From assembly GCF_000016985.1 (NCBI RefSeq), contig NC_009633.1:2585539-2649538 (forward strand): a stretch of 64,000 nt of DNA, read 5' to 3'. The translations under genes and the position numbers were made by a program. Below the pieces are notes generated by a model. That model made no database searches and was not told the DNA's origin. It worked only from the letters and a program-made list of their open reading frames with translations. This document shows positions 3,035 to 49,468 of this stretch, piece after piece. The stretch is from Alkaliphilus metalliredigens QYMF. GTDB taxonomy: Bacteria > Bacillota > Clostridia > Peptostreptococcales > Natronincolaceae. How positions within the stretch are numbered: the first letter of the stretch is position 1; every line of letters starts with the position of its first letter.

Positions 3035-3070
3035 ATTAAAATAGAATGCTATTTAGCATTCTATTTTAAT
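3035..3070 (-). terminator. Candidate intrinsic terminator or attenuator between miaB and mutS
   Basis: A perfect 15-bp inverted repeat (3035-3049 / 3056-3070) with a 6-nt loop overlaps the miaB stop codon. It is AT-rich and its distal arm contains CUAUUUUAAU, so it could act as a weak, possibly bidirectional terminator or as an mRNA-stabilising hairpin. Whether miaB transcripts reach mutS depends on its strength. Confidence 0.55.
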
Positions 3071-4491
3071 AACTCTCCGTTTAAGGAAAAGGTCTTGGGC
3101 TCCGTAATTTTCACCCTAACAATTTGACCGATATCTTCTTTATTACCAGCAAAGTTGACCAACTTACTTTGTGGGGTTCTTCCCATTAATTTGGCGTCAT
3201 CGGTTTTACTTGTTCCTTCTACTAAAACTTCAACAACTTTATTTAAGTATGCTTTGTTTATTTCACCACTAATGCGATTTACAGCCTCTATTAAGCGATT
3301 AAATCTTTCGTGTTTTACATCGTCTGGGACATGGTTTTCCATCTTTGCTGCTGGAGTTTCCTGTCTCAGGGAATATAAATACGTATAGGCAGAGTTAAAT
3401 CTTGCTTTTTCAACGACATTCAATGTTTCTTTAAAATCATCCTCTGTTTCTCCAGGGAAACCGACAATAATATCCGTTGTCAGGGCAACATTTGGGACCT
3501 TAGACCTTACTTTTTCAACAAGCTCTAAGTATGCTTCTTTCGTATATTTACGATTCATTGCCTTAAGAATGTCATTACTTCCTGCTTGAAAAGGAAGATG
3601 TAAGTGTGCGCATACTTTAGTGCAAACAGTCATCGCACTAATGAGAGAATCTGATAAATCTTTAGGGTGGGAGGTCATAAAACGAATTCTCTCAATCCCC
3701 TCTATTTTATTTAGTACTTTTAATAGATTTCCAAAATCAGTTTCTTCTTCTAATGTCTTACCATATGAATTCACATTTTGTCCTAACAGGGTAATTTCTT
3801 TTGTACCATTTTTTGCCAGTTCTTCTACTTCATCTATAATTTCCTGAACTTCTCTGCTACGTTCTCGCCCCCGTGTATGGGGAACAATACAGTATGTACA
3901 AAAGTTATTACAACCGAACATAATGTTGATAAAGGCTTTTAATCCATACTTTCGCGTAACAGGCAGACCTTCTACAATATCACCTTCTTTGTCCCATACA
4001 TCAATGATCATATTATCGGACTCCATGCTTGTTGATAATAACTCAGGAAACTTATGTAGGTTATGTGTGCCAAAAACAAGATCTACATGGCGGTATTTTG
4101 ATTTAATTTCTTTTACAACATGGGGCTGTTGCATCATGCATCCACATACTGCAATGGTTAAATCATGTTTTTCCTTCTTTAGGTTTTTTAATGAACCGAT
4201 ATTTCCGTATACCTTTAACTCAGCGTTCTCTCGCACACAGCATGTATTATATATAATTAAGTTTGCTTCGTTCTTATCATTCGTCTCTATATAGCCTATG
4301 TTTTGCAAAATGCCCGCTAATTTTTCTGAATCATGCTCATTCATTTGGCAGCCGTAGGTTACAGTGAGATGTTTCTTTCTCTTGCCAGTCCTCTCGTACT
4401 CTGCATCGTTTATTTCCCTTAATTTATTTATGATTTCACGTTGTTTATTTAGATCTTCTTCTGAAATCTTAACTTCTTCTCGTTTACTCAT
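3061..4491 (-). CDS. miaB: tRNA-2-methylthio-N6-dimethylallyladenosine synthase MiaB (hybrid: phage-supplied 5' end)
   Basis: Radical-SAM methylthiotransferase that modifies A37 of tRNAs; 476 residues. The N-terminal domain carries the auxiliary-cluster cysteines C48 (YGCQMN), C84 and C118. The radical-SAM motif CxxxCxxC is at C194/C198/C201, followed by a C-terminal TRAM domain. The first ~48 codons appear to be prophage DNA: the homologous original host 5' end, with its own RBS and the same YGCQMN motif, lies 45,159 bp away at 49480-49632. The hybrid frame is intact, so MiaB activity is presumably kept. The ATG at 4491 has an AGAGGAGG-type RBS and a near-consensus promoter upstream. Confidence 0.97.
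4338..4372. other. attL: left prophage-host junction inside miaB
   Basis: The stretch TTCATTTG (4340-4347) recurs at attR (49499-49506), flanked by further homology because both copies encode YGCQMN. To the left, the sequence continues as host miaB. To the right, an arm CAGTGAGATGT (4362-4372) forms a dyad with ACATCTCGCTG at attR (10 of 11 bases) when attP is rebuilt. The dyad centre falls between 4349 and 4350, making TG (minus strand) of the Cys48 codon the likely 2-bp crossover. The exact crossover is inference; the repeated core and the arms are seen directly. Confidence 0.85.
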
Positions 4492-5163: not shown

Positions 5164-6132
5164 TTACTGTAGTATTAAATCATTCTTTTTCATCGCTGCA
5201 GTCACTTGGCCATTAGAACTTATAACCACCCTGTCTCCGCTTATATGCTGCACGTCATAAACTCTGGCATATACAAAACTGGCAAGGTTGCCTCCTGTAT
5301 ATGTTTTAGCTCCATTTCTAACCTTCACTCTGCTACCTTTTTTAATCGTTGCTGCACTGGATCCAGGAGAAACAGGTTCTCCAGATTGGGTAGTTATGAA
5401 AGTATCGAAACCTTTTGACTTTAGCTTTCTAGCTTGCGATTCTGCATTTGATTTATTGCTGTATGCACCTACTTGCACTTTATACAATCCGTCTACCTTG
5501 ACCATATAGGTGTCAAAACCTGCAGCTTCTACCCTTGCAGCTAAAGCGTCTGCATTCGCCCTGTTGCTAAAAGCACCTGTCTGGACTCTATACAGTACAT
5601 TTCCATTAGGTGGTTTTGTGGCGGGTCCGCTCAGCCTTTTGTTTACCTCATCTGCAATATAAGGAAACTTGCTTTCTAGGTATGGCCCAGGACAATTAGT
5701 TGCTGCAAACCATTTATGCATGGTTAGGTTGCCTCTTTCGTCTCCTGTAAAGTTCAGCTTTTCTATGCCGTTACGCTTACAGATATCTACACATAGCTCT
5801 ACTGTTTTTTCTAGAGCTACATCAGATACAGGCCAATTAGGGGCTCCGCCGCTGTTTGCCACTTCTATAGTAACCGCTTGGTTGTCATTTGCAGCACTTG
5901 AACTTGTCCATGCACGATTTTTTTCTTCTACGTACATTCCGACTCTACCTCTATTGTCTACCCCGTAGTTGGAGCTGGCCCTTCTACTTGATGGCTTAAA
6001 TATTTCGCCAACTCGCTCGACTGATAAATTACCAGCCACATGATGAATGGTGATTTTTCTTATTTTGTCTCGTCTTGGATTTGTGCTATTGGGTGAAATA
6101 TTGGTGTGATTTACTAATGGGCTGTTGCTCAT
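5164..6132 (-). CDS. N-acetylmuramoyl-L-alanine amidase endolysin with SPOR repeats
   Basis: 322 residues from the ATG at 6132, which has an AAGGAGG RBS; an upstream in-frame extension has none. The N-terminal amidase_2/PGRP domain shows zinc-ligand positions in ITIHHVAG and in MHKWFAATNCPG. Two SPOR-type repeats follow (YRVQTGAFSNRANADALA and YKVQVGAYSNKSNAES), then a C-terminal SH3-like segment (KKGSRVKVRNGAKTY). It cleaves the bond between MurNAc and the stem peptide at lysis. SPOR repeats bind denuded glycan strands, an unusual but known wall-targeting module for endolysins. Confidence 0.93.
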   Translation of the reverse strand: MSNSPLVNHTNISPNSTNPRRDKIRKITIHHVAGNLSVERVGEIFKPSSRRASSNYGVDNRGRVGMYVEEKNRAWTSSSAANDNQAVTIEVANSGGAPNWPVSDVALEKTVELCVDICKRNGIEKLNFTGDERGNLTMHKWFAATNCPGPYLESKFPYIADEVNKRLSGPATKPPNGNVLYRVQTGAFSNRANADALAARVEAAGFDTYMVKVDGLYKVQVGAYSNKSNAESQARKLKSKGFDTFITTQSGEPVSPGSSAATIKKGSRVKVRNGAKTYTGGNLASFVYARVYDVQHISGDRVVISSNGQVTAAMKKNDLILQ

Positions 6133-6146
6133 TGTCAATTCCTCCT

Positions 6147-6392
6147 TTACATATTTTGGATATACCAAACAAAAAAGCCTAACAACGTAGTAATCGTTAG
6201 ACCCATAGCCCACTTTATAGTGGTTACAAGTGACTTTATTTGCTCGCAAAGATTTTCTATTTTTGTTTCAGTGCGAGACTGATGTTGTTCGAGTTTATCA
6301 ATTCGCTCGGAATGATTGTTAAGTCTCTTGTCTTGAGTATTGAGCCTTTGTTCTATACTCCTGTGTTTTTCAACGCAAACCATGTTATCCAT
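6147..6392 (-). CDS. XhlA-like hemolysin/holin-accessory membrane protein
   Basis: 81 residues: an N-terminal coiled coil of heptads (residues about 10-55) and one C-terminal transmembrane helix (GLTITTLLGFFVWYI). This is the architecture of XhlA of Bacillus PBSX, which acts with a holin in lysis. AAGGAG RBS at the ATG. It lies 14 bp upstream of the amidase and just after the DGR reverse transcriptase. Confidence 0.85.
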   Translation of the reverse strand: MDNMVCVEKHRSIEQRLNTQDKRLNNHSERIDKLEQHQSRTETKIENLCEQIKSLVTTIKWAMGLTITTLLGFFVWYIQNM

Positions 6393-6461
6393 AAGCTAAC
6401 TCCTTTCACATTTTATAATAATGGATTAAATGTTTTGTCTGCCTCACCTCCCTTCTTTATC

Positions 6462-7544
6462 TTATGAACCTCTGATGAGGGTAAGGTTTTTCAATACGGA
6501 ACACTTCAAGTAGTAGCTGTCGCAATGTTGCAGTATGCCTAAATAGCTCTGCACGCAAGTGTTTACATCTTCAAAAGTTACATCGTTCCTGCCATAAGCT
6601 TTCTGCAGATATTTTAACCTTCTCTTCATTTTCTTGGCGGTTTTTTTCTTAAGTTTCATGTGTGTTGGCCATATTCTAAATCCAACAAACTCAATACCTA
6701 CAGGTGTGGGTCTTATACAAGTTTTTCTATTTAGGTGTAGTTCTAGTTCGCTATTCAGGAAGTTCTCTATTTCCACCTTTAACCTGTGCAAGTATTTCTT
6801 GTCATGATGCAAAACAATAAAGTCATCCATATATCTTATGAAATACTTTATTTGCAGCTTGTGTTTACAAAATTGATCTAATTCGTTGAGGTATATATTT
6901 GCTAGGAGTTGACTTGTAAGATTACCTATAGGCATACCCTTATCGTGGAGCCTCATATATTTAGGACAATCTCCCGGTTCCATACCTAACGGTAGCCCAA
7001 AGGCCATATCTTCGCTTTGAATTATCTCCTCCATCAACCAAAGTACGTCTTTGTCTTTTATCTTTTTTCTTAAAATTTTCAAGGCTATAGAATGATCTAC
7101 CCTGTAAAAATATTTAGATATATCCATCTTTAGGTAGTAATATTTTTGTGGCTTTCTGTCTATTTGCCTTAACCAATACTGCAACTTTTTAGCCGCTTGA
7201 TGAGTGCCTCTTCCTATTCTGCAAGCGTAGCTATGTTCTGTATAGGTTTTTTCAAACAAAGGGTTGAGAACCCTATAAATTGCCCACTGAACCACTCTAT
7301 CCTTAAATGGCAGAGCCATAATAAGTCTTTTTTTAGGTTCATGAACATAGAACTCTCTATACCTGCCAACTTTATATGCTTTCCAGATAAGCTCGTTTTG
7401 TATCTGGATTAGATTCTCTTCAAGATTCGCACTAAATTTAAGTATTTCATCCCTAAACCGTTTATCTTTTCTAGCCTCTAAATAAGCAAAATACAAATTC
7501 TCAAAGTCGTATATTTGTTCATACAAGTAGCCATATCTTTTCAT
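6462..7544 (-). CDS. DGR-type reverse transcriptase
   Basis: 360 residues. It copies TR RNA into adenine-mutagenised cDNA. Palm motifs are visible: KMDISKYF (catalytic D141), the DGR-diagnostic IGNLTSQ at 206-212 (group II intron RTs have QGxxxSP here) and RYMDDF with catalytic D240/D241. There is no maturase X or endonuclease domain, and the C-terminus is a short basic thumb, as in DGR RTs. An AAGGAAAGG stretch lies about 20 nt before the ATG, so the start is slightly uncertain. It is immediately downstream of the TR and upstream of the lysis cassette. Confidence 0.96.
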   Translation of the reverse strand: MKRYGYLYEQIYDFENLYFAYLEARKDKRFRDEILKFSANLEENLIQIQNELIWKAYKVGRYREFYVHEPKKRLIMALPFKDRVVQWAIYRVLNPLFEKTYTEHSYACRIGRGTHQAAKKLQYWLRQIDRKPQKYYYLKMDISKYFYRVDHSIALKILRKKIKDKDVLWLMEEIIQSEDMAFGLPLGMEPGDCPKYMRLHDKGMPIGNLTSQLLANIYLNELDQFCKHKLQIKYFIRYMDDFIVLHHDKKYLHRLKVEIENFLNSELELHLNRKTCIRPTPVGIEFVGFRIWPTHMKLKKKTAKKMKRRLKYLQKAYGRNDVTFEDVNTCVQSYLGILQHCDSYYLKCSVLKNLTLIRGS

Positions 7545-7729
7545 GTCTTTTCATATCTTGTCCTTTCCTTGTTGTAATTTGTGCTATGTGTAATACTCTT
7601 CGAGAATAAACCTACTAGCTATTTCCATAGCAATATATTTTTTTGCCTTTTAGGCAGGGAAATGGACCCCTTATTTTCCATGCACTGTGCAAGCTCCCTT
7701 GGGAATCTTGCCTTCTGGCGATGAAAATG

Positions 7730-7841
7730 AGCGGAGCGGAACCCAATGTTCGTACTCACGTTAGACCGAGGGTTGTTCAAGTTCACAGCGAACACCCCAG
7801 CATTGGACGTGTTGTTCCAGTTGCCACCGAAATACGGCAAC
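7730..7841 (-). repeat. DGR template repeat (TR), part of a non-coding template RNA
   Basis: 112 bp aligned without gaps to the VR at 8297-8408. The 11 mismatches (7749, 7750, 7762, 7776, 7777, 7782, 7812, 7813, 7816, 7821, 7822) are all T on the plus strand, that is A in the transcribed strand; 23 such A are present and none of the other 89 positions differ. The TR contains nine AAY (Asn) codons in the VR frame. The 19-bp invariant low-coordinate end (7730-7748) corresponds to the IMH-like end. A 185-nt spacer separates it from the RT start, comparable to the spacer used for cDNA priming in BPP-1. The frame is open here, but I do not call a protein. Confidence 0.97.
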
Positions 7842-7866
7842 GATGATCCATTCCCTATATTTATGT

Positions 7867-8208
7867 TTACTTGGCCGACTTCATCCAGCCTCCAAGCATT
7901 CTTCCTATTTCATTTAACATCTTGGACCAGTGTTCATACTTTCTTAAAGGCAGGTACCTTACCTTTAAATCTGCCGCAAGTCTTATTTGCATTCTAAGCC
8001 ACTCTAATTCGATATCTATTTCTTGCAGCGTTGTTTTCTTGTGATATTTTTTATTAGCTCTAATGATAAGGTGGGTTATTTCACTCATTGTTTTTCTTAT
8101 ATCTGCAGCCATAACATGCTTTTCGTGTTTTGGGAATTGTCGCAAGCATTCGTTCCCGTAGAGAATCATGTCATAAGTTTTTTGCAATATTTTAAAGTCT
8201 GCATTCAT
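7867..8208 (-). CDS. avd: Avd, DGR accessory variability determinant
   Basis: 113 residues, all-helical and basic, fitting the four-helix-bundle Avd family. Avd forms a barrel-shaped pentamer that binds the RT and template RNA and is required for mutagenic cDNA synthesis. It lies between the target gene and the TR, ending 25 bp before the TR, the same place as in BPP-1. A GGGAGA RBS precedes the ATG. Family assignment rests on size, helix pattern, basicity and context. Confidence 0.92.
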   Translation of the reverse strand: MNADFKILQKTYDMILYGNECLRQFPKHEKHVMAADIRKTMSEITHLIIRANKKYHKKTTLQEIDIELEWLRMQIRLAADLKVRYLPLRKYEHWSKMLNEIGRMLGGWMKSAK

Positions 8209-8237
8209 ATCAAATATCTCCCTATTTTTTAAATAAT

Positions 8238-8261
8238 AAAGGCCCGCTATCGCAGGCCTTT
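8238..8261 (-). terminator. Hairpin 36 bp downstream of the VR: terminator and/or DGR target cruciform
   Basis: A 7-bp stem AAAGGCC/GGCCTTT (8238-8244 / 8255-8261), then a C-A mismatch and two more GC pairs around a 4-nt loop. On the minus strand it is followed by AUUAUUU. It lies in the gap between the variable gene and avd. It may partly terminate late transcription before avd-TR-RT. DGRs of the BPP-1 type also need a hairpin/cruciform shortly downstream of the VR for efficient homing, and this is the only candidate. Confidence 0.7.
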
Positions 8262-8281
8262 CAGATTATCAGCTCCACAGA

Positions 8282-9340
8282 TTACAGATCTACATAAGCG
8301 GAGCGGAACCCAATGAGCGTACTCACGTGAGACCGAGGGTTGCCCAAGCTCACAGCGAACACCCCAGCATTGGACGTGAGGTCCCAGCGGCCACCGAAAT
8401 ACGGCAACCTTTCTCCTTCATTTCTCATGTAAACCCTGTCTTGGCCATGATCACTGTTGTCTTGAGGGAATAGTGCTAAAGTTTTTAGTATTTCTGGGAT
8501 GTCTACTCCACTTGCAGCACTTATAGTCTCAAATGTTTCGTTTGCAGAACTAGAACCTCCGGTAGGGTTCTGGATGCTTGTATTGATTCTAATGCCACTA
8601 GGGGAAGAAGTAGCTGCATCAAGTTTCAAAGTTCCCGTAGTGCCAGGATCTACAAATGAACCATCTGGCATAATAGCTTTCCAAAGAGTACTATTAACAC
8701 TTTGATTTACGTGCATTGCAGCATTGTTATAAGGGATAATTTGAATTTCTCCATCAACTAACCTGTATCCACCAAACCACTCCCAGACGTTTCCGTTAAG
8801 GTCATAAATTCCATCCGTAGTTCCATCGTGTGCCCAGCTTGCAGGTCCAGATCCAGTGGCTACTCTTTGTATTCTTCCAGAGCTGTCAAGACCTGTCGAT
8901 GCTATCCCTCTTTCATGAGCTGCAGAGTGATCACTTCCATAATTATTATTACCTCTTGGCATTGTTCCATTTTTCTTGGACCATAGAGCTAATGCAGCTC
9001 TTTCTGCATTAGTCATAAGATGCCAACCCATACCTTTGTTCTCGCAAAATTGTTTTGCCTGGTCAAAGTTCAATGAATGTCTTGGATCCATCAATGGAAG
9101 GCTATACGCTCTATCTCCTTTTACGATGTTTTGATATTTGGAAATATAAATATTATTTTTTTCCACACCATCAATAATCCATGCCGGATGAGTGTTTTGG
9201 GTAGCTCCTGCGACAACATCCGAATTTCTTAATCTAGGCACTCTTACCATAAAACTTGGCATTCCTCTATCGTCCAAGATGATAGTGTTTTTCCCACCAC
9301 TCAAGCCTTCTACAGCCAATTTCAACATATCGTAATTCAT
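8282..9340 (-). CDS. DGR-diversified tail-tip protein (FGE-sulfatase/C-type-lectin-like fold)
   Basis: 352 residues. The FGE-like fold is shown by WHLMTNAERAALALW (106-120) and DLNGNVWEW (180-188), the hallmark of DGR variable proteins built on the formylglycine-generating-enzyme scaffold. The C-terminal variable repeat covers about residues 312-348 and ends GFRSA. Residues 318, 320, 321, 331, 333, 338 and 342 (R, D, L, S, G, H, L) are all Asn in the TR. TAATG overlap with the upstream tail gene, with GGAGG before the ATG. Its position after the baseplate genes suggests a receptor-binding protein at the tail tip; the ligand is unknown. Confidence 0.95.
   Translation of the reverse strand: MNYDMLKLAVEGLSGGKNTIILDDRGMPSFMVRVPRLRNSDVVAGATQNTHPAWIIDGVEKNNIYISKYQNIVKGDRAYSLPLMDPRHSLNFDQAKQFCENKGMGWHLMTNAERAALALWSKKNGTMPRGNNNYGSDHSAAHERGIASTGLDSSGRIQRVATGSGPASWAHDGTTDGIYDLNGNVWEWFGGYRLVDGEIQIIPYNNAAMHVNQSVNSTLWKAIMPDGSFVDPGTTGTLKLDAATSSPSGIRINTSIQNPTGGSSSANETFETISAASGVDIPEILKTLALFPQDNSDHGQDRVYMRNEGERLPYFGGRWDLTSNAGVFAVSLGNPRSHVSTLIGFRSAYVDL
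8297..8408 (-). repeat. DGR variable repeat (VR)
   Basis: 112-bp homologue of the TR at the 3' end of the variable gene, ending 12 bp before the stop codon. Relative to the TR it carries A-to-T, A-to-G and A-to-C changes at 11 of 23 adenines and none elsewhere. All changes lie in seven AAC codons, so no stop codon can arise there. This is the footprint of at least one past mutagenic homing event. Confidence 0.97.
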
Positions 9341-40822: not shown

Positions 40823-41562
40823 TAGAACACTTTCTTGCTGATATCTATTTCTAGTCCTTTACTTCCTATATAAACCGGCCTACCTGTAGACCTCTCTATT
40901 TCTTCTTTGAATAAATTCTTGTCACTGTTTTGGCTACTTAAGTGTATCAGTACAATATTTTTGGTATTGCTCAAGTCGCTACTTCTTAAAAATTCTTTTA
41001 CATTTTCTAGTTCAAAGTGAGATTTTGTTATTCTGTTTTTTAGACATTCCAGGACCAAGCCTTTTTCGATATTCTGTTGTAAGATTTCTTTTTTGTAGTT
41101 GCACTCGACCATTATATGGTCCAGTCCTTTAAATTTATACTTACAGTAGTAGGAGTCTGTTATAAATAATAACTTTCCCATGTCTTGATGCTGGATCAAG
41201 AACCCTAGCGGTTCCTCTGCATCGTGCTGTGTATCGAATGGGAGTATTGTAAATCCCCCCACCCTTATTTTTTCTTGTGCCTTTATAGCTTTTAATCTAT
41301 AGCTTTCTTTTAATCCTAGTGCTTGCATTGTTCCGTTGCTGGTGTACACATCTATCCCGTTTTTGTTTAGTTGTTCTATACTTTTGCTGTGATCCTTATG
41401 TTCGTGAGTTACAAGGCAACCCACGACTTTTATTGTTTCATAACCAAGGCCCTCCTGGATTTTCTTGAATGTCAATCCACATTCCAAGATTAACGTTTCC
41501 TCTTTATTTTCTAGCAAGTAGCAGTTTCCAGAGCTGCTACTTGCTATCACCTTGAGTCTCAT
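40822..41562 (-). CDS. Metallo-beta-lactamase-fold hydrolase (YycJ/WalJ-like)
   Basis: 246 residues. The metal-binding motif HEHKDH at 53-58, then DTQHDAEEPLGF, FITDS and a late HLS. The closest style is YycJ/WalJ-type proteins, thought to act on DNA ends. It lies between Bet and DnaD in a recombination block, suggesting a nuclease partner for annealing. Confidence 0.87.
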   Translation of the reverse strand: MRLKVIASSSSGNCYLLENKEETLILECGLTFKKIQEGLGYETIKVVGCLVTHEHKDHSKSIEQLNKNGIDVYTSNGTMQALGLKESYRLKAIKAQEKIRVGGFTILPFDTQHDAEEPLGFLIQHQDMGKLLFITDSYYCKYKFKGLDHIMVECNYKKEILQQNIEKGLVLECLKNRITKSHFELENVKEFLRSSDLSNTKNIVLIHLSSQNSDKNLFKEEIERSTGRPVYIGSKGLEIDISKKVF

Positions 41563-42357
41563 TTAAAATCCTGGATCCTCGTATAAGTCATTTGCACTTT
41601 GTTGCTTTCCGGTATTGTGCTGTCCTTGGTTTCTGTTTTGGGATCCAGATGTTGCTTTTTGGCTTTCGTCTTTTCTAGGTTGTTTTTGGTTCTTTTCTTC
41701 TGTTATTTCATCTTCTTCTATGTCGATTACCTGGTTATTGGCATTTTGTTGTATTTCTTCGGCCACTTCTACTTCTACCGTATTAGTTTCCTTTACGATT
41801 ACCTGCTCATCGTCAGTGTACATGGCTCCTAGGTTGTCCGGGAATGCCTCCCTTAATGCTTGTACAAGTGCTGTTTTTCTTATCATGGTCTTGGGCATGG
41901 CTTTCCAAGTTGCTTGCCCTTTATTGAATTCGTCTATGTTTATCTTCGTAATGTATGGGTATTTTTTGTCTTTCACATATACCTCTGCCCATCCTCCTAA
42001 AAGTTGGTCTCCTGGTAGGCTAAAGCTCCCCTCTAATTCTAAGGTTTCTTCTCCTCTTTGGACTATAATCCCGGCTTTTATTCCATCGAATTTTGGGTGA
42101 TCGAATGCCCTCTTCATGTATGCCTCTTTACTGGTGATTAGTTGTGCTGGTGCTCCCTTAAACTTTACTAGGTATGCCTCGTTTAAGAAGGGGTTTAGTT
42201 TTTGGTACTTACACAGGTTGATGAACATTACTATTTCCTGCTCCGATACCGTGTCGTTCCCTCTGGTGAGATAGTTTTTTACCATCCCACCTGTCAGTTT
42301 TACCTCTTGACCATTAACCTCGTAAACTACCGGTTTGTTTAAAATTTCATTCGACAT
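41563..42357 (-). CDS. bet: Bet/RecT-family single-strand annealing protein
   Basis: 264 residues. Core of the Bet family: YQKLNPFLNEAYLVKFKG, ITSKEAYMKRAFDHP, MIRKTALVQALREAFPD. The C-terminal ~70 residues are Gln/Asn/Glu-rich and disordered. It anneals complementary ssDNA during phage recombination. AAAGGAG RBS. Neighbours are an SbcC-like ATPase and an MBL-fold protein. Confidence 0.93.
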   Translation of the reverse strand: MSNEILNKPVVYEVNGQEVKLTGGMVKNYLTRGNDTVSEQEIVMFINLCKYQKLNPFLNEAYLVKFKGAPAQLITSKEAYMKRAFDHPKFDGIKAGIIVQRGEETLELEGSFSLPGDQLLGGWAEVYVKDKKYPYITKINIDEFNKGQATWKAMPKTMIRKTALVQALREAFPDNLGAMYTDDEQVIVKETNTVEVEVAEEIQQNANNQVIDIEEDEITEEKNQKQPRKDESQKATSGSQNRNQGQHNTGKQQSANDLYEDPGF

Positions 42358-47740: not shown

Positions 47741-47767
47741 TATTTTTATATTTGAGAGGTGATTTTA

Positions 47768-49468
47768 TTGGAGAAAGCAGCATTATACATTAGAGTGTCA
47801 ACGCACCACCAGATTGACAAAGACTCCCTTCCTTTTCAAAAAAAGGAACTTATCAATTATTCGAAATATGTGCTAGGTGTAGATGAATATGAAATATTTG
47901 AAGATGCTGGTTATTCTGGTAAGAATACAGATCGTCCAAAGTTCCAGGAGATGATGAGCAGGATTCGTGCTGGGGAATTCACTCATGTTTTAGTTTGGAA
48001 GATTGATCGTGTTTCTAGGAACCTTCGTGACTTCACAGAGATGTATGATGAAATAAAAAAATACAATGTTACTTTTATTTCTAAAAATGAACAGTTCGAT
48101 ACCTCTACCGCTATGGGCGAGGCTATGCTAAAAATTATCCTGGTATTTGCCGAGTTAGAGCGAAAGCTCACAGCCGAGAGGGTTTACTCGATTATGCTAT
48201 CAAGAGCTGAAAAAGGGTTATGGAATGGAGCTCCTGTGCCTTTAGGGTATGACTTTGATGAAGAATTAAAATTTGCTGTTGTAAACGAAGAAGAGGCCAA
48301 GATAGTAAAGTTTATTTTTGATACCTATGAGGAAGTAAAGTCTACCGGAGAAGTTAAGCACCGACTAGAGGCTAATGGTATTCGAACTAAAAGAAATGGC
48401 CACTGGACTACCAAAACTATATCAGACGTGATTAGAAACCCTTTCTATGTTGGTACTTATAGATACAACTACAGATACAGTCCTCATGGAAAGATAAGAC
48501 CAGAAGAAGAATGGGTGGTTGTGGAAGATAATCATCCTGCCATTGTATCTAAGGAGCAATATGAAAAGCTTAATAAAATAATGGATTCTAATGCTCACGG
48601 AAGAGGTACCGATAGAACAAAAGAAAATCATATCCATGTTTTTAAAGGTCTAATTAGCTGCAGTAAATGCAATAAAAATTATATTGCATCTACCGATCGC
48701 CCTAGGTCTGACGGATACAGGCCTTCTGTTTATCGGTGTTATAATTACGTCCATAACAAAAAGCAATACAGAACATGCAGCGGTGGTATTGGCGAGGTTA
48801 AACTCGGTCCATTTGTAATTAATTATATAGCTAACCTAATTAAATCAAATGAGTTTATTTCCACCTATGGATCCAAAGGAACTGAAAAAGAAGTTGAGAA
48901 AATATTATTAAAAGGATCCTCTTTTAAGGGTGTTGCTGGCATAATTGCCCAGGATCTAAAGCATACTTACGAGGTTTTGTTGAAAAATACTGGCGACATT
49001 CTTTTTGATAGTATCGAGGAACCAAAAGATATCGAACAGGATATGGAGCTTGAATCTTTGAAATCTGAAAAGAAGAAAATCGAAAGAGCTCTTCAAAGGT
49101 TAGAAGATTTATATCTATTTTCGGAAGATAGTATGTCTGAAAAGAATTACCTGGTGAAAAAACAAGAGCTTGAGAAGAGAATTAATTCTATAAACGACAA
49201 AATAAAAAAGAGGTCCCAGGAATACTCCAGGAACCTTCCAGGTCATGATTTAAGTTTTATAAAAAAGGCCACTCAATATCTTTTGGCCCATAATTTATAT
49301 AACGATCGAGCTATTAATTATAACAAGATTGTGAAAATGATAGATAAGAAATTGCTGCAAGATTTTATGCAATGTGTAGTTAAGAAAATAACAGTAGATG
49401 AGGATAAAACAATTTCATCTATTGAATTTGTTAATGGCCTTTCCCATAGGTTTATATACAGAAAATGA
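47768..49468 (+). CDS. int: Large serine recombinase (phage integrase)
   Basis: 566 residues from a TTG at 47768 (RBS GAGAGGTGA; a GTG at 47759 is inside the RBS). Catalytic domain: YIRVSTHHQ with Ser11, DRVSRN, ELERKLTAERV. The recombinase domain is followed by a zinc ribbon (CSKC ... YRC ... C) and a C-terminal coiled coil (about 415-480) typical of large serine integrases. It acts on the attB in miaB. It ends 18 bp before the attR dyad arm. Confidence 0.96.
   Translation: MEKAALYIRVSTHHQIDKDSLPFQKKELINYSKYVLGVDEYEIFEDAGYSGKNTDRPKFQEMMSRIRAGEFTHVLVWKIDRVSRNLRDFTEMYDEIKKYNVTFISKNEQFDTSTAMGEAMLKIILVFAELERKLTAERVYSIMLSRAEKGLWNGAPVPLGYDFDEELKFAVVNEEEAKIVKFIFDTYEEVKSTGEVKHRLEANGIRTKRNGHWTTKTISDVIRNPFYVGTYRYNYRYSPHGKIRPEEEWVVVEDNHPAIVSKEQYEKLNKIMDSNAHGRGTDRTKENHIHVFKGLISCSKCNKNYIASTDRPRSDGYRPSVYRCYNYVHNKKQYRTCSGGIGEVKLGPFVINYIANLIKSNEFISTYGSKGTEKEVEKILLKGSSFKGVAGIIAQDLKHTYEVLLKNTGDILFDSIEEPKDIEQDMELESLKSEKKKIERALQRLEDLYLFSEDSMSEKNYLVKKQELEKRINSINDKIKKRSQEYSRNLPGHDLSFIKKATQYLLAHNLYNDRAINYNKIVKMIDKKLLQDFMQCVVKKITVDEDKTISSIEFVNGLSHRFIYRK

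Follow-up and report, generated by a model that had tools for sequence, protein, structure and literature searches.

The window analyzed here, a 64,000-nucleotide stretch of the Alkaliphilus metalliredigens QYMF genome (contig NC_009633.1, positions 2,585,539 to 2,649,538), carries within a prophage what its sequence identifies as a complete phage diversity-generating retroelement (DGR). The element is of a kind already known and is probably a working one. Its variable repeat (VR) differs from its template repeat (TR) only at template adenines. With a probability of roughly three in four, we propose that TR RNA is copied into adenine-mutated cDNA that replaces VR in a C-type-lectin-type tail-region protein, and that four regularly spaced CTG units and a DNA hairpin mark the site of replacement. 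The components are as follows.

8282..9340, minus strand: target gene, encoding a variable protein of 352 residues of the C-type-lectin/FGE-sulfatase type (PF03781; TaqVP, 5vf4)
8297..8408, minus strand: VR, 112 nt, encoding the last part of the target; TR-VR offset 567
8262..8287, minus strand: CTG tetrad between VR and the hairpin, units at 8287-8285, 8280-8278, 8272-8270 and 8264-8262 (spacing 7, 8, 8)
8238..8261, minus strand: DNA hairpin of 10 pairs (6 G-C) that follows VR, loop GATA (of the GRNA type), with a score that is also intrinsic-terminator-like
7867..8208, minus strand: avd, encoding the accessory protein Avd of 113 residues (bAvd PF22296, E 7e-33; NCBIfam DivGenRetAVD NF033474, 132.7 bits with a cut-off of 80; phrog_3206)
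7730..7841, minus strand: TR, 112 nt with 23 A
7545..7729, minus strand: spacer of 185 nt from the TR end to the start of the reverse transcriptase (RT) gene, predicted to form a structured portion of the template RNA, with covariation
7584..7731, minus strand: Rfam RT-14 RNA (RF02921), 65.4 bits with a gathering score of 48.1
6462..7544, minus strand: DGR RT of 360 residues with IGNLTSQ and YMDD motifs (PF00078, E 1.7e-23; PDB 8ub7; tree placement)

A first-pass annotation of the window had described target gene, avd, TR and RT as collinear in the order of Bordetella phage BPP-1, and had counted 11 differences between the 112-bp repeats, all at TR adenines. The coordinates and the BPP-1 record, in which avd is annotated as bbp7, bear out that order, and we reproduced the counts: on the TR coding strand, mismatches affect 11 of the 23 A and none of the 89 other bases. 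The probability that 11 of 11 mismatches would land on A by chance is 2.6e-9. Of the eight AAC codons, seven have become other NNC codons in VR. When the whole genome (4,929,566 bases in one contig) was searched with TR, no copy besides TR and VR was found, and a second target elsewhere in this genome was rejected on that result.

The alignment of VRs from related genomes, which the annotation had suggested as a check, gave the same picture. The nearest RT, 92-93% identical to that of the window, belongs to a DGR of Clostridium formicaceticum (L004). The two TRs are identical at 97 of 112 positions, and the two VRs differ at 12 of the 21 shared template A and at none of the 76 other shared sites. 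Pooling this locus with two further relatives (L015 and L029) gave differences at 31 of 57 template A that are shared and at none of the 203 remaining shared sites; this three-relative comparison is the fairer test of A bias, though the repeat ends were set by an A-tolerant score. Such divergence, restricted to shared A, is expected if conserved templates have repeatedly served adenine mutagenesis. In a batch of 81 loci, 940 of 1788 A were changed together with 26 of 6551 other bases, but such totals are biased towards A because the pairs in our batches of 81, 54 and 10 loci were filtered for 5 or more A changes and no more than 2 others (no more than 3 in the batch of 10). The proposal of adenine-specific mutagenic retrohoming is thus supported as past activity by TR/VR and by the VRs of relatives. 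As a reading of the locus it was incomplete rather than wrong, because it overlooked the cis-elements beside TR and VR, namely the spacer RNA, the DNA hairpin and the CTG tetrad.

The window provides a single sequence, and its repeats could be the record of past activity alone in an element that has since decayed. We regard this as quite improbable. RT, Avd and target are all open reading frames, RT and target keep residues that are invariant among their relatives, no non-A difference has accumulated between TR and VR, and A sites vary among the VRs of close kin.

The IGNLTSQ and YMDD motifs named at first pass can both be read in the RT translation. By sequence, its best solved relative is the 328-residue RT in entry 8ub7 (E 2e-49), which we take to be the BPP-1 enzyme; group II intron RTs (from E 1.9e-23) and others rank behind it. 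In a tree of 41 rows, 33 RTs from TR/VR loci, including BPP-1 as a 184-residue piece, were split with support of 100/100 from 8 RTs labeled group II-like on the basis of frame length, absence of TR/VR and tree position. The window RT falls on the DGR side, so the phylogenetic check proposed with the annotation also came out in its favor. This tree repeats an earlier one of 118 rows, some of which (BPP-1 and L005) had been poorly extracted. A group II intron RT was rejected on tree position and because the protein scored 143 bits against NCBIfam group_II_RT_mat, below the cut-off of 300. A retron was likewise rejected, as St85, the sole retron model among the matches listed, gave 43.8 bits with a cut-off of 235.

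The only PDB sequence match of the target protein is TaqVP (5vf4), the DGR variable protein of Thermus aquaticus (E 3.4e-69). The predicted target fold (mean pLDDT 79.8, 33 sequences) also resembled TaqVP most closely (TM 0.87, E 5e-36, 38% identity), with Mtd variants next and weakly; the two proteins differ by inserts and in their variable stretch. VR spans about residues 311-348 of the 352, which places it at the C-terminal end of the target.

Between TR and RT, the RT-14 match begins where TR/VR homology stops, and the first covarying stem of the spacer starts a few bases from the TR end. Across 15 spacer sequences, 26 of 36 predicted pairs showed two-sided compensatory change, and the covariation score was 0.615, compared with 0.277 for shuffled and at most 0.196 for slid alignments. 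A weaker helix, formed between a GGG-rich stretch and the 3' end of TR, had no two-sided changes, and the window spacer folded alone was no better than its shuffles (z -1.25). Scans of 36 related loci found RT-14 in 14, RT-17 in 6, RT-9 in 1 and none of these in 15. In 20 further loci there were three RT-14 matches, one match to Rfam Phage_DGR, right after the annotated TR of BPP-1, and neither family in 16. At the level of genomes, RT-14 was present in 5 of 198 relatives (this one included; 4 over the cut-off) and in 0 of 14 controls. RT-9 and RT-17 (L006 2526-2618; L044 and L046-L050) were observed directly before DGR-type RTs, and after TR where a TR was found; in L048 and L050, a TR/VR pair was looked for and not found. 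All matches to RT-14, RT-9, RT-17 and Phage_DGR thus occupy the same place, yet only Phage_DGR is described in Rfam as a DGR RNA, whereas the RT-14 entry reads just "RT-14 RNA". Rfam RT-14 is thereby tied to DGR template RNA. In BPP-1, the spacer serves both to recruit RT-Avd and to prime cDNA synthesis (PMC12875486), and by analogy the window spacer RNA would do the same.

To compare the DNA that follows VR and TR, we used 158 loci: 25 treated by hand (the window, L004-L006, L015-L018 and 17 of L029-L051) and 75 of 81, 49 of 54 and 9 of 10 loci from the three batches. The set contains near-copies (L152 and L094, for example, are one contig) and leaves out L001-L003, which are the window itself, the near-copies L032 and L047, the distant L023-L025 and loci for which no pair was found. 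For non-redundant subsets, we used either a limit of 85% ungapped identity between target flanks (62 of 82 targets retained) or the sharing of 4-mers between RTs (118 of the 150 loci with an RT found).

VR and TR share a GC-rich 3' end and diverge right after it. Downstream of VR, the window hairpin lies 35 nt away, just beyond the distances published for phage DGR hairpins, which have GC-rich stems of 7-10 bp and GRNA loops on the sense strand and lie 4-34 bp from VR (PMC3240598). As single-stranded DNA (ssDNA), the region 8230-8300 folds with z -4.73. A hairpin with a 4-nt loop occurs at most 90 nt after VR in 82 of 100 TR/VR loci, and the loop was GRNA in 56 of the 62 non-redundant targets in a search open to any 4-nt loop. 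With a GRNA hairpin defined by a loop of 4 nt and a stem of 6 or more pairs, 4 or more of them G-C, within 90 nt, 84 of the 118 loci non-redundant by RT have one after VR and 1 of 118 has one after TR. Other loop types score as none under this definition, and the inverted repeat published for the ANMV-1 DGR (L195; PMC4372165) was missed for that reason.

Between VR and the hairpin is the CTG tetrad, which has no copy at TR. Its sequence is CTG-TAAT-CTG-TGGAG-CTG-ATAAT-CTG; the first unit is the last codon of the variable protein and the others lie past the stop. The exact 7, 8, 8 pattern occurs once in the window and in none of 100 shuffles. The 62 non-redundant targets carry between VR and hairpin four CTGs in 38 cases, three in 14, two in 6, one in 2 and none in 2, a mean of 3.35 versus 0.46 in shuffled sequence. 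The 148 intervals between these CTGs are 7 (93), 8 (46), 14 (4), 15 (3) or 22 (2) nt: 139 are 7 or 8, none is 6 or 9, and the nine long ones are consistent with skipped units. With slightly wider margins, the full tetrad is present in 41 of 62 targets, always with a first interval of 7 (41 of 41), and in 0 of 31,000 shuffles. Units 1, 2 and 4 prefer AATCTG and unit 3 prefers ACTG. In some phages, TTG units appear at the same period. Allowing for these, chains of at least three YTG units spaced by 7-8 nt were found downstream of VR in 100 of 158 loci (75 in the set of 118 that is non-redundant by RT) and downstream of TR in 0 of 158, as against 36 of 3160 shuffles. Over 74 loci, units within a locus resemble one another more (0.510) than permuted units do (0.297, with a maximum of 0.359 in 2000 permutations), as though all were read by a single factor.

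An ordinary DGR might, however, carry such a run with no role in homing, as an inherited sequence behind the target gene or as an mRNA leader to a terminator. The hairpin does score like an intrinsic terminator, most units lie past the stop codon, and AATCTG microsatellites occur elsewhere in viral contigs. Against this, CTG is kept across RTs that are 44-93% identical to the window RT while most bases between the units vary more freely, the A two bases before CTG is favored as well in three of the four units, and the intervals of 7 or 8 admit no 6 or 9 among 148. The array is also specific to the recipient side, with no chain after TR in 158 loci, and its units occupy all three frames relative to the target gene. 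The frame distribution led us to reject a coding explanation, and taken together we find it unlikely that the array is without a function in homing.

The pattern can be found without reference to an RT. An RT-blind scan of viral contigs returned at least 120 stretches, with 86 non-redundant matches among those listed. Within these 86, 35 reach a GRNA hairpin within 8 nt, compared with 23 of 24,200 random positions; a TR/VR pair lies upstream in 33, and 45 have the hairpin, the pair or both. Among the other 41 are microsatellites, matches that look coding and some ends that resemble a VR but lack a qualifying hairpin. Microsatellites of the AATCTG type that mimic the tetrad were seen in viral contigs L213, L244, L290 and L321. 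A shorter pattern gave 9 matches in the A. metalliredigens genome versus 5 for a reversed control, and overlapping matches occurred at the DGR site only.

We propose the following model for the element. TR RNA with its spacer would bind RT-Avd, and cDNA would be synthesized with errors opposite A. The cDNA would then meet VR through the common GC-rich end, with tetrad and hairpin flagging VR rather than TR as recipient. That end runs into tetrad and hairpin in the recipient and, as predicted, into the first spacer-RNA stem in the donor, and this difference in what follows would set the direction from TR to VR. The tetrad could be read by the RT-Avd-RNA particle, with the Avd ring as the likeliest part to act on the single-stranded sense strand at a replication fork. 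Avd forms a pentameric ring in BPP-1, and TRAP provides a precedent for the reading of spaced triplets. A period of 7-8 nt is unlike a face of B-DNA and would fit ssDNA wound on a ring. In addition, BPP-1 editing favors targets co-directional with replication, for which the lagging-strand template is the strand complementary to the cDNA (PMC12875486), and the sense strand may therefore be read in single-stranded form.

This preference also suits a different account, in which the four units serve host primase as clustered start sites on the lagging-strand template, yielding a short primer that is extended to join the cDNA. Primases of E. coli and other gammaproteobacteria initiate on 5'-d(CTG) (PMC5204125), BPP-1 editing prefers co-directional targets (PMC12875486), and the GC skew of the window is negative on the plus strand in 8 of 8 blocks of 8 kb, which fits co-direction, though coding bias could also produce it. 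The Clostridium difficile primase, however, is not effective on CTG, and other Firmicutes primases used CTA and TTA (PMC5204125); the tetrad is nonetheless present in C. formicaceticum (L004), and three units are found in a Bacillus phage (L052). A change of DnaG left BPP-1 editing unaltered, a result that its authors deem inconclusive (PMC12875486). In our judgement, a primase would not need a fixed period of 7-8 nt, and versions with TTG exist. Initiation by primase is accordingly a very unlikely purpose for these units.

CAG-type bases in the spacer RNA (CCAGAAG and CAGTGC) might instead pair with the CTG units, so that the template RNA itself reads the target. Stretches of the CAGA and CAGT/CAGC types are indeed present in most of the 15 aligned spacers. 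When loci were compared by eye, the targets with TTG units (L162-L164) retained CAGAAG in their spacers, and the spacers of loci with ACTG units were mixed (CAGAAG in L097 and L100, CAGTAG in L086), with no consistent matching change. Each unit would contribute 3-4 bp. The by-eye comparison gave no support, the candidate was rejected, and we give such pairing hardly any credence.

Returning to tetrad and hairpin as marks of the recipient, the closest reference is BPP-1. Its DGR shares with the window the order target-avd-TR-RT, a structured TR-RT spacer and a GRNA-loop hairpin after VR (PMC3240598). Its TR and VR likewise differ at A only, over 119 nt and at 17 of 23 A, and its target Mtd is distantly similar to the window target. 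The spacer between VR and hairpin is 4 bp in BPP-1 (PMC3240598), as compared to 35 nt in the window, and the spacer RNA, in the same place, belongs to another Rfam family (Phage_DGR rather than RT-14). The annotated end of the BPP-1 VR, the initiation of mutagenic homing (IMH) region, has no CTG tetrad; it has GTG, CTG and TTG at 8 and 7 nt, with CTG and TTG in register and the CTG missing from the TR copy. By analogy, the tetrad may be a generalized and fuller form of the BPP-1 IMH. The DGR of C. formicaceticum, by comparison, has the tetrad, the same hairpin and RT-14 as in the window. In Bacillus phage BalMu-1, a DGR with an RT 59% identical to that of the window has TR/VR, a GRNA hairpin and CTG spacing of 7 and 8, with three units in place of four; its annotation names only the RT of the DGR.

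A bolder form of the proposal is that Avd-type DGRs have their real target code in four (Y)TG triplets with a period of 7-8 nt on the sense strand, which the subunits of the Avd ring would read as ssDNA in the manner of TRAP, with the BPP-1 IMH as a worn-down version. We put this forward tentatively, as a possibility that we would sooner doubt than accept. If true, the code separates recipient from donor, and new DGR targets could be found without their TR.

Several observations weigh against a general role for the array, or against strict adenine specificity. A chain of three is missing in 43 of the 118 loci non-redundant by RT, and fewer than three units are in register in 33 of the 108 such loci that have Avd; both groups include BPP-1, with two units in register, and most of its kin. 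Sixteen of the 118 have the array and no GRNA hairpin. The 4 bp closest to the BPP-1 hairpin tolerate changes without loss (PMC3240598). The distant DGRs L023-L025, which have TR/VR and were checked separately, showed no chain of three at 7-8 nt. RT-14 and array are not strictly paired: 16 of the 20 further loci lack RT-14, some of them array-bearing, and L019 has RT-14 with no CTG run found before its RT. The TR/VR of L030 has 8 non-A differences along with 17 at A, and non-A differences also occur in L205 (10), L249 (7), L286 (4) and L295 (7).

The association of the array with Avd must be read with similar caution. All 75 array-bearing non-redundant loci have Avd, 74 by profile and phage VHML by an Avd-like stretch (tblastn), and the 10 non-redundant loci without Avd, ANMV-1 included, have neither array nor GRNA hairpin. 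This co-occurrence is confounded by ancestry, and descent accounts for it as well as function does. Many RT and Avd residues correlate with array class (41 TCTG and 17 ACTG loci), and among the matches listed 19 of the top 30 are in Avd; however, there are only about two changes of class along the RT tree (two independent pairs), and these correlations therefore allow no conclusion.

We did not find the CTG tetrad described, although it is common in the Avd-type phage DGRs examined. A word search of the main text of PMC3240598, PMC10743442, PMC8144416, PMC6642488, PMC4372165 and PMC11792537 found no "CTG" and no mention of the array, and a literature search likewise turned up no paper on it, which is weak evidence of absence because figures and key papers lay outside the search. 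The paper on archaeal DGRs describes other IMH motifs, TGGGGT versus TGGAAT (PMC4372165). The retrohoming step has been called incompletely understood (PMC12875486). A strictly spaced element present only at VR makes target recognition testable, and tetrad and hairpin together offer a TR-independent signature for DGR targets.

Individual loci showed features of their own. YTG runs follow the VR of the distant DGR L023 (2212-2260) at intervals of 9, 9, 6 and 12, outside the 7-8 register. In Faecalibacterium phage Mushu (L200, from about 5252), VR lies in a Hoc-like gene and five in-register YTG units fall within coding sequence. L019 has large direct repeats downstream of its RT (5979-6576, offset 219 bp), and a TR/VR pair was not found there among the matches listed. 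The viral contig L162 has a Hammerhead type II ribozyme downstream of its DGR (7919-7984).

The first-pass description of the host element as a contractile-tailed prophage agrees with its genes, which include a sheath, tail tube, tail assembly chaperone (TAC), phage minor tail protein of the tape-measure type, sheath initiator, baseplate J and Mu Gp48-like protein. The prophage likely extends from 4571 to 49468, with a serine recombinase (47759-49468) at its far end. Its start is flanked by genes that we recognized by eye as presumably miaB (3061-4491) and mutS (318-2960), and attachment repeats sought at the two ends did not exceed 11 nt. Elsewhere in the prophage (40825-42357), a RecT-family protein (41566-42357) is encoded beside a protein with a metallo-beta-lactamase fold, and RecT might aid annealing of the cDNA.

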